Positions 5,369-29,382 of a stretch of DNA of 64,000 nucleotides are shown here, one piece after another. The stretch lies in NCBI RefSeq assembly GCF_006265115.1, contig NZ_SMDR01000001.1, forward strand, positions 1,054,001 through 1,118,000. Direction: 5' to 3'. Origin of the DNA: Arenimonas terrae. GTDB lineage: Bacteria > Pseudomonadota > Gammaproteobacteria > Xanthomonadales > Xanthomonadaceae. The position numbers and the translations under genes are program-made. Below the pieces are notes generated by a model, which saw only the letters and a program-made list of their open reading frames with translations, was not told the origin of the DNA and made no database searches. Position 1 is the first letter of the stretch. The number at the start of each line of letters is the position of its first letter.

Positions 5369-5808
5369 GGCGCGCTGCGCCGCACCGGCACTTCCACGTA
5401 CAGCCGGCGGCCGTCCGCCAGCACCAGCCGCAACCGCGCGCTGTCGCCTTCGGCCAGCGGCCGCAGCGGCTTCATCAGCATCAGGTGCAGGCCGCCGGGC
5501 TCGAAGCGCAGCGACGCGCCGGCGGCGACGACCATCCGCCCCGCCGGCCGCATCCGGCTGACGCCGTCCACGAGTTCGGTTCGGTGGATCATCGGCATGC
5601 CGAAGTCCCGGCTCTCGACGTCCACCACCTCGACCGCGGCGGCGCAGGGATTGCGCAGCACCAGGTACCCGGCCAGCGTGCTGGCGCCCGGCGGCGCGGC
5701 GCGCACCCACGCCTTCTCGATCACCGGCGCGCAGTCGGGCGCCGCCCCAACGGCGGCTGAAGCGGACAGCCAGAGGGTCAACCCCAGGCACGGGCGGAGT
5801 ACGTTCAT
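5365..5808 (-). CDS. PCu(A)C periplasmic copper chaperone
   Basis: PCuAC proteins hold Cu(I) in the periplasm and deliver it for cytochrome oxidase CuA assembly. The 147-residue product has an N-terminal signal peptide (about residues 1-22). It also has the full family copper motif H-x10-M-x21-H-x-M: His of MIHRTEL, Met of SRMRP, and HLM near residue 113. All four ligands are present. It is transcribed divergently from the DUF4139 gene. The tail is RRSAP. Confidence 0.9.
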   Translation of the reverse strand: MNVLRPCLGLTLWLSASAAVGAAPDCAPVIEKAWVRAAPPGASTLAGYLVLRNPCAAAVEVVDVESRDFGMPMIHRTELVDGVSRMRPAGRMVVAAGASLRFEPGGLHLMLMKPLRPLAEGDSARLRLVLADGRRLYVEVPVRRSAP

Positions 5809-25974: not shown

Positions 25975-26162
25975 GTTGGAGACGGGCCGGCGGCATCCCG
26001 CCCACCCGGTTCCGGGCTTCCGCTGCCGGCTCCAGAACCCTAAACGCTGGCTGAACGCTGCGTCCCGGCGCGCGAATCCTTCGCTCCGCCGAAAGGCTCT
26101 TCCTGGGATATGACAGCAAGGCCATTCCGGTCCATGCTCGGAGCCCGGAGAGAGCGCCCACC

Positions 26163-26678
26163 ATGCACAGCCCGGCCTGGACCCAGGACCTCGAAGCGGC
26201 CCGCGGCGGCGACCGCCCCGCGCTGGAACGGGTGCTGACGCGCTCGCGCCAGGACCTGCGCCGCTACGCCGAACACCACTGCGTGGTGAACGATGCCGAG
26301 GACGCCGTGCAGGAGGCGCTGTTCACGGCCTCGCGGCGGCTGATGGACCTGCGCCAGCTCGAATGTTTCGCGTCGTGGCTGTTCCGCATCGTCAAGCGCG
26401 AATGCAACCGGATGAAACGCGGCCTGCGCAACCTGCGGCAGGAGCCGATCACCGAGGACATCGCCGACACCTGCACCATCGAACGGCGCGGCCTGGCACG
26501 CGACCTGGCCATGGCAATCGAGTCGCTGCCGGCGCACTACCGCGAGATCGTGCTGCTGCGCGACCTCGAGGGCCTGACCATCGAGGAGCTGTCCGAACGG
26601 CTGGGCCTGACCCGCGAAGCCGCCAAAGCGCGCCTGCACCGGGCCCGGGCGCTGGCGCGAGAATACCTGCAAGACTGA
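26163..26678 (+). CDS. ECF-type RNA polymerase sigma factor
   Basis: The 171-residue protein has sigma region 2 ([18 protein letters not shown] near residues 43-60, then [18 protein letters not shown]) and region 4 with a helix-turn-helix ([20 protein letters not shown], then [20 protein letters not shown]). It lacks region 3, as ECF sigma factors do. It is followed after 46 bp by the Cys-rich peptide gene, and both starts are preceded by GAGAGAGCG. In Caulobacter an ECF factor (SigF) controls comparable bufferin genes. No anti-sigma gene is adjacent. Control of the downstream cluster is inferred. Confidence 0.88.
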
Positions 26679-26724
26679 CCCACCCCGCGGGGCAACCCGC
26701 ACCATCCCAGAGAGAGCGAAGACC

Positions 26725-27102
26725 ATGTCCAAGAAGACCCTGAAACCCGTGGTACTGGCCGCCGGCGCCGTGATGCTCGGCGGCATGGCCCTGGCCAATT
26801 CCGCGTTCGCCATGAGCAGCCTGGCCCAGGGTTACCTGGTGGCGTCCGAGGACGCGGCCAAGGCCGAGGAAGGCAAGTGCGGCGAAGGCAAGTGCGGCGA
26901 GGGCAAGTGTGGCGACGACAAGGCCGGCCAGGAAGGCAAGTGCGGCGAAGGCAAGTGCGGCGGCGACAAGGCCGCGGAAGAAGGCAAGTGCGGCGAAGGC
27001 CACTGCGGCGCCGAGAAGGGCGAGCACGAAGGCGCCTGCGGCGGCGACAAGGCCAAGGAAGAAGGCAAGTGCGGCGAAGGCAAGTGCGGCGGCAACGGCT
27101 GA
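26725..27102 (+). CDS. hvfA: HvfA/bufferin-type RiPP metallophore precursor with EGKCG repeats
   Basis: The 125-residue precursor has a Sec-type leader (about residues 1-29, ending SAFA) and a Glu/Gly/Lys-rich core. Its ten cysteines (52, 57, 62, 73, 78, 89, 94, 105, 116, 121) all sit in EGxCG: eight EGKCG, one EGHCG (94) and one EGACG (105). The motifs form blocks of 3, 2, 2, 1 and 2, separated by spacers of exactly six residues (DDKAGQ, GDKAAE, AEKGEH, GDKAKE). In the HvfA and bufferin families, MNIO enzymes convert these cysteines to copper-binding heterocycles or thioamides, and the product protects against copper. The next genes encode that enzyme and partner. The exact modification and metal are inferred. 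Confidence 0.9.
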
Positions 27103-27109
27103 GCACGCC

Positions 27110-27967
27110 ATGACGGCCATCCGTTCCCTTTCCCCGATGGCCGCCGGCCTCGGCCTGCGGCGGGCCCTGATGGGTCCGCTGCAGGCCGCTGCGCCGGGCG
27201 ATTTCGATTTCCTCGAATGCGCGCCCGACAACTGGATCGGCGTCGGCGGGCGTTTCGGCGAGGGCCTGCGCGAACTGAGCGCAAAACACCCCTTGGTCTG
27301 CCACGGGCTGTCGTTGTCGCTGGGCGCGGTCGAGCCCTTCGACCAGACCTACCTCCTGAAGCTGCGGCGTTTCCTGGACGAACACCGGGCGCCGGTCTTC
27401 AGCGAGCACCTGTCCTACTGCAGCGACGACGGCCAGCTCTACGACCTGATGCCGATCCCGTTCACCGAAGAGGCCGTGCACCACGTCGCCGGCCGCATCC
27501 GCCAGGTGCAGGACACGCTGGGCCGGCGCATCGCGGTCGAAAACGTCTCGTACTACGCCGCGCCCTACCAGGCCATGCCGGAGGTCGACTTCCTGAACGC
27601 CGTGCTGGCCGAGGCCGATTGCGACCTGCTCCTGGACGTGAACAACGTCTTCGTCAACGCGGTGAACCACCGCTACGACGCCCACGATTTCCTGCGCCGC
27701 ATCCCCGGCGAACGCATCGCCTATTTCCACGTCGCCGGCCACTACGACGAGGCCGACGACCTGAAGGTGGACACCCACGGCGCCACCGTGAAGCCCGACG
27801 TGTTCGCGCTGCTGGACGAGGCCTGCACCCTGTTCGGTCCGCGGCCGGCCCTGCTCGAGCGCGACTTCAACTTCCCGCCCTATGCCGAACTGGTGGCCGA
27901 AGTGGCGACCATGCGCGGCGTGCTGGCGCGCCATGCGCCCGCGGAGCAACGCCATGCCCGCGGCTGA
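27110..27967 (+). CDS. hvfB: MNIO/DUF692 multinuclear iron oxidative enzyme (HvfB/BufB type)
   Basis: The 285-residue protein belongs to DUF692 (MbnB/TglH/HvfB), TIM-barrel enzymes that use two or three irons and O2 to modify cysteines in a precursor peptide. Likely iron-ligand segments are CHGLSLSLG (His65), FSEHLSY (Glu99, His100), VENVSYY (Glu144, Asn145), [21 protein letters not shown] and VDTHGA. AGxGLR near the N-terminus and LLERDFNFP near the C-terminus are also family-like. It starts 7 nt after the precursor stop and overlaps the DUF2063 gene by 14 nt. The substrate is presumably the adjacent EGKCG peptide. Confidence 0.93.
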
Positions 27968-28718
27968 GTCGCTGCGCGCGCAGCAGTTCCGCCTGGCCGC
28001 GCACCTGCGCGATCCGGACGGCGCAGCGCCGCCGCCCGGCCTCGAGGACCGGCGCCTGAAGATCTACCGCGACCTGTTCTACAACAGCCTGCAGGGGCTG
28101 CTGGCGGGCAACTTCCCGGTCATCCGCAAGCTGCTGGGCGCGGACGCCTGGCATGTGCTGGTGCGCGACTTCTACCGCGAGTACCGCTGCAGCACACCGC
28201 TGTTCCCGGAACTGCCGCGTGAATTCATCCAGTACCTCCAGGAGCGCGGCGACGAGCGCGGCGATCCGCCCTGGCTGCTGGAGCTGGCGCACTACGAATG
28301 GGTCGAGCTGGCGCTGGACCTGAGCGAAGCCGGGCTGGCCGACGCAAGCTTCGACGCCGATGGCGACCTGCTCGCCGGCGTGCCGGTGCTGTCGCCCCTG
28401 GCATGGCCGCTGGCCTACGCCTGGCCTGTGCACCGGCTGTCGCCCGATTACCAGCCCACCGCGCCGCCGGGCGACGCGACCTTCCTGCTGGTGCAGCGCG
28501 ACGCAACCCACAAGGTGCGCTTCAACCAGCTCAGTGCGCTGACGTTCCGCCTGCTGCAGCGGATCTCGGAGTTTCCGGATCTGAGCGGGGGCGAACAGCT
28601 GCGGGCCTTGGCCGTCGAAGCCCAGGCTGCGGATACCGACGCCTTCGTCGCGGCGGGCCGCGAAATGTTCAAGCAACTTCATGCCGACGGCGTGGTCCTC
28701 GGCACCCGAATCCCCTGA
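27954..28718 (+). CDS. hvfC: DUF2063 partner protein (HvfC/BufC type)
   Basis: The 254-residue protein has the DUF2063 N-terminal helical domain ([20 protein letters not shown] near 34-53, [29 protein letters not shown]) and a C-terminal region of about 100 residues after [15 protein letters not shown]. In characterised systems the HvfC/BufC partner binds the leader of the precursor and is needed by the MNIO enzyme, playing a RiPP-recognition role. The start lies inside the end of the MNIO gene, so the two products are probably made in step. An older label for DUF2063 is 'putative DNA-binding', which does not fit this context. Confidence 0.9.
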
Positions 28719-28728
28719 GGAAACCACC

Positions 28729-29382
28729 ATGCGAAACACACTGAGCGAGCGCTGGACCGCGCTCACCGAACGGCTGGACGGCGTCGGCGACTGGCTGGCG
28801 CCGCTGGGCCTGCGGCTGATACTGGCCTGGGAATTCTGGGAGGCCGGCATCGAGAAGTTCCGCGGCGAGAACTGGTTCGCCAGCATCCAGTCCGACTTCC
28901 CCTTCCCCTTCGACCGCGTGCCGCCGGACCTGAGCTGGACGCTGGCGACCTGGTTCGAACTCGGCGGCGCGGTCGCGCTGCTGCTCGGCCTGGGCACGCG
29001 CTTCTTCGCCTTCAACCTGTTCGTGCTGACGATGGTGGCCACTGCCTCGGTGCACTGGCCGATGAACTGGCAGACGCTGCAGGACCTCGCCATGGGCTAT
29101 GCGATCAGCGACAAGGGCTTCGGCAACTTCAAGCTGCCGCTGATCTTCGCGGTGATGCTGCTGCCGCTGGTGTTCAAGGGCGCGGGCAGGTTCAGCCTCG
29201 ATGCCCTGATCGCCGGCCGCCTGGCCACGCGACCGCTGCAGGGCGTGCAGGACACGCTGGCCTGGGGTCTTGCGGGGCTCGTGATCGGGCTGCCGCTGTC
29301 GCTGCTGCTGCCGACGCTGGGGCTCACCCTCGCGGCCATCGGCCTGCTGCTGGTGGCCCTGGACCGACTGCTGCTGGCCTGA
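28729..29382 (+). CDS. hvfX: DoxX-family membrane protein (HvfX type)
   Basis: The 217-residue inner-membrane protein has DoxX-like helices: [20 protein letters not shown] near 26-45, [20 protein letters not shown] near 72-91, [20 protein letters not shown], and [20 protein letters not shown]. DoxX proteins of this group are often the last gene of MNIO/DUF2063 clusters; their role (redox, export or metal handling) is not settled. It follows the DUF2063 gene by 10 nt. Two extra hydrophobic segments occupy the C-terminal 50 residues. Confidence 0.85.

Follow-up and report, generated by a model that had tools for sequence, protein, structure and literature searches.

A captophorin operon of Arenimonas terrae probably driven by its own ECF sigma factor

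The products made from EGKCG-type precursors that have been described, namely fontiphorin, oxazolin and gonophorin, carry 5-thiooxazole groups formed with a loss of 4 Da per cysteine, and those among them that were tested bind copper (PMC13097082, PMC13419390). For oxazolin, an earlier oxazolone/thioamide structure has been withdrawn and revised (PMC13097082, PMC13419390); the name of the NCBI model retains "oxazolone/thioamide". On the enzyme side, Arg-Arg and Asp-Phe pairs are the mark of the Lys-Cys substrate group, and the Asp and His of the VDTHG motif are essential in HvfB (PMC13097082, PMC13419390). In regulatory terms, the Neisseria sigma factor SigE shares a transcript with the homologous operon, drives it, is autoregulated and is held by the ZAS protein MseR (PMC2893595). 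In H. influenzae, exposure to HOCl leads to transcription of hvf by RpoE2, which HrsE otherwise restrains (PMC7907618), and sigma-F of Caulobacter, together with NrsF, responds to Cr and Cd (PMC3511200). In a 2025 survey, sigma factors are noted in connection with Buf1 but not with EGKCG clusters (PMC12452194).

The locus considered here lies in a 64,000-nucleotide stretch of Arenimonas terrae DNA (hereafter the window). Like the oxazolin (hvfABCX, Haemophilus influenzae) and fontiphorin (fonABC, Fontimonas thermophila) systems, it encodes an EGKCG precursor with a predicted signal peptide, an HvfB MNIO and an HvfC (PME1) protein, and it shares HvfX with the H. influenzae hvf operon. It differs from them in the sigma gene at its head and in its 10 EGxCG sites, one of them EGHCG and one EGACG, as against 6 in HvfA and 7 in FonA (PMC13419390, PMC13097082). 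With the gonophorin operon of Neisseria (NMB2140-NMB2145/NGO1948-NGO1943) it shares an ECF sigma factor within a captophorin operon and, as we infer for Arenimonas, autoregulation, a likeness that does not imply orthology of the sigma factors; in Neisseria, however, the sigma gene follows the biosynthetic genes and is accompanied by the Cys-containing ZAS anti-sigma MseR, whereas in Arenimonas it comes first. The Caulobacter bufferin 1 operons (sigma-F/NrsF) are comparable in that an ECF sigma controls MNIO and DUF2063 genes under metal stress (PMC12452194, PMC3511200), and unlike the Arenimonas operon in their DUF2282 precursor and membrane anti-sigma NrsF, although one sigma factor of the Arenimonas family does lie beside a DUF2282 cluster (see below). 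No pair of the SigE/MseR or SigF/NrsF kind is apparent, there being no anti-sigma gene adjoining the Arenimonas sigma gene and no extra conserved gene in 60 loci. CorE of Myxococcus xanthus provides a precedent for an anti-sigma-less ECF sigma in a metal response (PMC3107203, PMC8999054), but it senses copper by a C-terminal Cys-rich extension that is absent from the 171-aa Arenimonas protein. A CorE-like metal-sensing sigma, with such a domain and a CXC in the linker, was accordingly rejected, as the sequence ends after region 4.

The biosynthetic genes are a fresh example of a large, already known class. An operon headed or accompanied by a sigma gene is likewise not without precedent, given the Neisseria system and the bufferin-1 operons with their other precursor type. 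As far as we could find, the literature holds no description of a dedicated, anti-sigma-less sigma factor with its own promoter across Lysobacteraceae. That the locus is a captophorin (oxazolin/fontiphorin-type) operon driven by its own ECF sigma factor is the reading to which we give a probability of roughly 0.85.

Biosynthetic genes and precursor

Five plus-strand genes are present where the earlier note had placed them, and their families are recognised far beyond chance in Pfam and NCBIfam (Pfam E-values: MbnB_TglH_ChrH, 8.6e-99; DUF2063, 7.5e-25; NGO1945_C, 7.7e-28; DoxX, 7.5e-21). The close packing of the last four, described in that note as gaps of at most 10 nt or overlaps, is likewise confirmed: 7 nt separate the precursor and MNIO genes, 10 nt the DUF2063 and DoxX genes, and the MNIO and DUF2063 genes overlap by 14 nt, while 46 nt lie between the sigma and precursor genes. 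The operon is flanked by gcvP upstream and RNase T downstream, and its hvfB is the sole MNIO gene recovered in a search of the host genome. Curated NCBIfam cut-offs, together with the same gene order in relatives, bear out the proposed assignment as HvfA, HvfB, HvfC and HvfX of an MNIO-modified, Cys-rich metallophore system; by its sequence, it is a captophorin (oxazolin/Buf_EGKCG) operon. A PCuAC gene said to lie about 20 kb away was found at window positions 5401-5721 on the minus strand and is the only one found in the genome; we found no evidence of a tie between it and the hvf operon.

Table 1. Genes and regulatory elements of the Arenimonas terrae locus (window coordinates)
Feature	Position	Strand	Description	Basis
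ECF sigma factor	26163..26678	+	171 aa; consists of regions 2 and 4; C-terminal extension absent	Pfam, conservation
HvfA-type captophorin precursor	26725..27102	+	125 aa; 10 EGxCG motifs	NF050137 72.9 bits, cut-off 19.5
HvfB-type MNIO	27110..27967	+	285 aa	NF003818 411.5 bits, cut-off 360; 3bww alignment; residues
HvfC-type partner (PME1, DUF2063 + NGO1945_C)	27954..28718	+	254 aa	NF050145 302.9 bits, cut-off 142
HvfX-type DoxX membrane protein	28729..29382	+	217 aa	NF050144 149.6 bits, cut-off 80
Inferred sigma-specific promoter	26072..26101	+	-35 GCGAATCC 26072-26079; 17-nt spacer; -10 CTCTT 26097-26101	
Direct repeat CTAAAC-N5-CTGAAC, 11-nt period	26040..26056	+	just 5' of -35; possible activator site	

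Comparison with the HvfA/BufA and HvfB/BufB families had been suggested in the earlier note. The MNIO exceeds the cut-off of the HvfB model and falls below those for BufB, ApyH, MbnB and ChrH. The precursor exceeds the cut-off of the KCGExKCG_twice repeat-domain model (NF050137) but falls, at 40.7 bits, below the cut-off of 95 for the HvfA equivalog NF050188, which is a narrow H. influenzae-type equivalog and no defining feature of captophorins at large. The MNIO contains R17/R18 and D252/F253, the signature of the Lys-Cys group, which were paired with R15 R16 and D249 F250 of FonB by motif and spacing rather than by alignment, as well as D221/H223 within VDTHG; an alignment shows its site motifs to be conserved with respect to PDB 3bww. 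The DUF2063 protein, a relative of PDB 3dee, is by its sequence the PME1 partner (DUF2063, RRE), and HvfX would be a membrane-located accessory protein. Among the relatives, the HvfC match of L003 comes in two pieces and the HvfB of L011, with one internal TGA, is matched in two frames; both look like frameshifts or assembly errors.

All 10 cysteines of the precursor fall inside EGxCG motifs, comprising eight EGKCG, one EGHCG and one EGACG. Its N-terminus, conserved in the alignment of relatives, consists of KK, a hydrophobic core and AFA, and is predicted to be a Sec signal peptide with cleavage after AFA at about residue 29, as judged by eye. A His-bearing variant block ending in (K/A)CG (window 26995-27040, precursor residues 91-106) is common to six Arenimonas precursors, that of the window and those of L005, L006, L008, L009 and L010; on account of this recurrence, the His-bearing repeat appears to be no random lapse. 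In the precursors of other relatives (L016, L017, L019, L020, L022, L025, L029, L030), EF-hand-like segments lie between the EGKCG blocks, a Pfam search confirming the EF-hand in L016. These inserted versions differ from the published precursor type, in which the EF-hands lie C-terminal to a short EGKCG domain; no EF-hand-like segments occur in the precursor of the window.

The sigma factor family and its candidate promoter

Pfam detects Sigma70_r2 and Sigma70_r4_2 (3.6e-15) above their cut-offs in the sigma protein, i.e., regions 2 and 4 with no region 3. Searching the sigma alignment against 84,980 genomes recovered 71 relatives with E below 1e-20 (L060-L130). An EGKCG gene lies directly downstream of the sigma gene in 59 of the 71; nearly all of these 59 loci have HvfB and HvfC, and nearly all belong to Lysobacteraceae. 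The gene order sigma-A-B-C(-X) is common to Arenimonas, Lysobacter, Pseudoxanthomonas, Luteimonas and Stenotrophomonas, with same-genus matches including A. daejeonensis, A. metalli and A. malthae. In an initial set of 30 distinct loci from relatives, 15 have the sigma gene ahead of hvfA; the remainder consists of more remote clusters, a truncated contig (L003) and an Arenimonas locus lacking the sigma gene (L012). As judged from this gene context, the sigma factor belongs to the unit and does not just happen to adjoin the hvf genes, and it appears to be dedicated to the EGKCG peptide operon across the bacterial family.

The 12 sigma relatives with no EGKCG gene directly downstream comprise outgroups and four loci (L073, L074, L075 and L077) in which the sigma gene has phoU or gcvP on one side and RNase T on the other and hvf genes are missing; of these four, only L073 retains a recognisable promoter motif. 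Their persistence suggests that the sigma factor may have another role there or be decaying. In a tree of 71 sigma sequences, in which some branches are long and the deep nodes unsure, the four group with hvf-bearing Arenimonas and the starred branches require the hvf label to change twice or more, so that it is simpler to suppose that these four lost hvf. Further, in L122 (5480-7583) the sigma-family gene lies beside genes for an MNIO, a DUF2063 protein and a DUF2282 (Buf1) bufferin precursor, and thus the family accompanies two types of captophorin.

The regions upstream of the sigma genes share a dyad, GCGAA-N20-CTCT, which is exact in 22 of 72, as against at most 5 for the best shuffled dyad. 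Its full form, GCGAAYCC-N17-CTCTT, usually stands about 90 nt before the sigma gene, has a 17-nt spacer in 42 of 44 instances and occurs within 200 nt upstream in 43 of 72 loci versus 31 of 1440 control windows. A first guess at the promoter, TGAAC-N17-CGAA, was set aside when the dyad count over the 72 loci and the fixed N17 favoured this motif. Scanning the 72 loci on both strands with a weight matrix yields 42 sites: 35 before the sigma gene, partly circular since the matrix was trained on these upstream regions, five in the hvfC-hvfX gap, two on the minus strand before the sigma gene and none elsewhere. Four tests are free of this circularity. One is the set of sites between hvfC and hvfX. 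Further, the motif is missing from every one of 14 hvf clusters that have no sigma gene (best score 1.7, as opposed to 14.9-30.8 in clusters with one); in its stringent form it occurs only once in the 3.3-Mb genome, in front of the Arenimonas sigma gene; and it recurs on the opposite strand, with the exact 17-nt spacer, in seven outgroups (L113, L115, L116, L120, L121, L122, L127). In three of the latter (L113, L116, L122) it faces a divergent gene encoding a VTT-domain/pyridine nucleotide-disulphide oxidoreductase fusion, whose reading frame is split in two in L116. Taken together, these tests point to the motif as the promoter of the sigma family, from which the Arenimonas sigma factor would transcribe its own gene along with hvfABCX. 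The predicted regulon is small, possibly the operon alone; a wider one drawn from a loose motif with one mismatch was rejected, with 70 matches versus 49 for a backward control pattern.

Additionally, a direct repeat of the form TRAAY-N6-TRAM is found within 200 nt upstream of the sigma gene in 45 of 72 loci, as compared with 8 of 720 control windows. Because this repeat upstream of the -35 element is conserved in the family, an activator might provide another input. Reading it as a Pho or PhoP site is unsupported, and a literature search returned nothing relevant.

Induction, modification and copper

Metal or envelope redox stress would raise the activity of the sigma factor, and the promoter would then yield one message for sigma and hvfABCX, with positive feedback, as the conserved motif suggests. 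The gap of 46 nt leaves no room for an anti-sigma gene between sigma and hvfA, and in 60 loci no genes around the sigma gene are conserved beyond the hvf genes, phoU and RNase T. With no anti-sigma gene in the unit, the signal could be relayed by a distant anti-sigma, could control the transcription of sigma at the direct repeat, or could act on the sigma factor itself. The first of these, a ZAS-type anti-sigma like MseR or HrsE encoded elsewhere in the genome and holding the sigma factor, is a serious possibility to which we would give somewhat less than an even chance: most ECF sigmas have an anti-sigma, as do the Neisseria and Haemophilus systems, and a genome search for zf-HC2 gave two weak matches, but neither reaches the cut-off and each immediately follows another sigma gene (C1:837051 and C1:1648245), and no further neighbour is conserved in the 60 loci. 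Direct sensing is thinkable on account of two region 2 cysteines, C40 and C81, which are invariant in all 71 readable relatives and occur together in none of the 13 other sigma-70-family proteins of the genome. That the sigma factor itself senses metal or thiol stress, with this pair as the switch for captophorin synthesis, nevertheless strikes us as improbable, and the invariance may have a structural cause. C68 and C104 were rejected as sensor residues, the former being present in only 27 of 72 sequences and the latter varying in the alignment. If true, self-sensing by C40/C81, with neither an anti-sigma nor a Cys-rich tail, would represent a sigma type so far undescribed.

Downstream of the switch, HvfC would present HvfA, with its EGKCG repeats, to HvfB; the iron centre of this enzyme would use O2 to oxidise each Lys-Cys, with loss of 4 H, to 5-thiooxazole, as shown in relatives. 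The signal sequence suggests that Sec then exports the peptide to the periplasm, where the thiol-bearing rings would bind Cu(I) and act as a buffer for surplus copper, as they do in relatives. The earlier note had regarded both the modification and the metal as unpredictable. Since all EGKCG-type products examined carry 5-thiooxazole, the modification is more foreseeable than that: by analogy, 5-thiooxazole is strongly predicted at 8 to 10 cysteines with a change of about -4 Da each, amounting to about -32 Da if the eight EGKCG sites react and about -40 Da for all 10. The range reflects the relatives, where FonBC accepted Ala before Cys, so that EGACG may be processed, and modified a His-preceded Cys once, in an otherwise different motif (PMC13097082). 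As regards the metal, copper is the likely natural signal and substrate by analogy, and the Arenimonas operon may give protection against copper, as has been demonstrated in relatives.

Instead of buffering copper, the product of the same biosynthesis could protect the cell from oxidants (HOCl, peroxide) or from another soft metal (Au, Cd, Cr), and the inducer, as in H. influenzae, could be an oxidant rather than copper. The induction of H. influenzae hvf by HOCl through RpoE2 (PMC7907618), the triggering of Caulobacter sigma-F with its bufferin genes by Cr and Cd (PMC3511200), the induction of 'gig' operons by gold, and the outgroup motifs facing the oxidoreductase gene, with CMD-family genes nearby, are all compatible with such a role; in the characterised EGKCG and bufferin products, however, the bound metal is copper, and we consider this alternative unlikely, if worth keeping in view. 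Far less credible is an independent stress sigma merely adjoining a sigma-70-driven hvf operon, which the 46-nt sigma-hvfA gap and the four loci that retain sigma in its usual place but no hvf genes would allow, but which fits poorly with a sigma motif that also precedes hvfX in five gapped loci and is missing from all 14 sigma-less clusters.

Captophorins are among the largest RiPP classes, with thousands of operons, and the switch is known for few of them. A captophorin operon driven by its own sigma factor would tie one sigma factor to one peptide operon over much of Lysobacteraceae, including Lysobacter, Stenotrophomonas and Luteimonas, by way of a readable promoter, and the inducing signal of EGKCG captophorins would thereby become directly testable with a single reporter.
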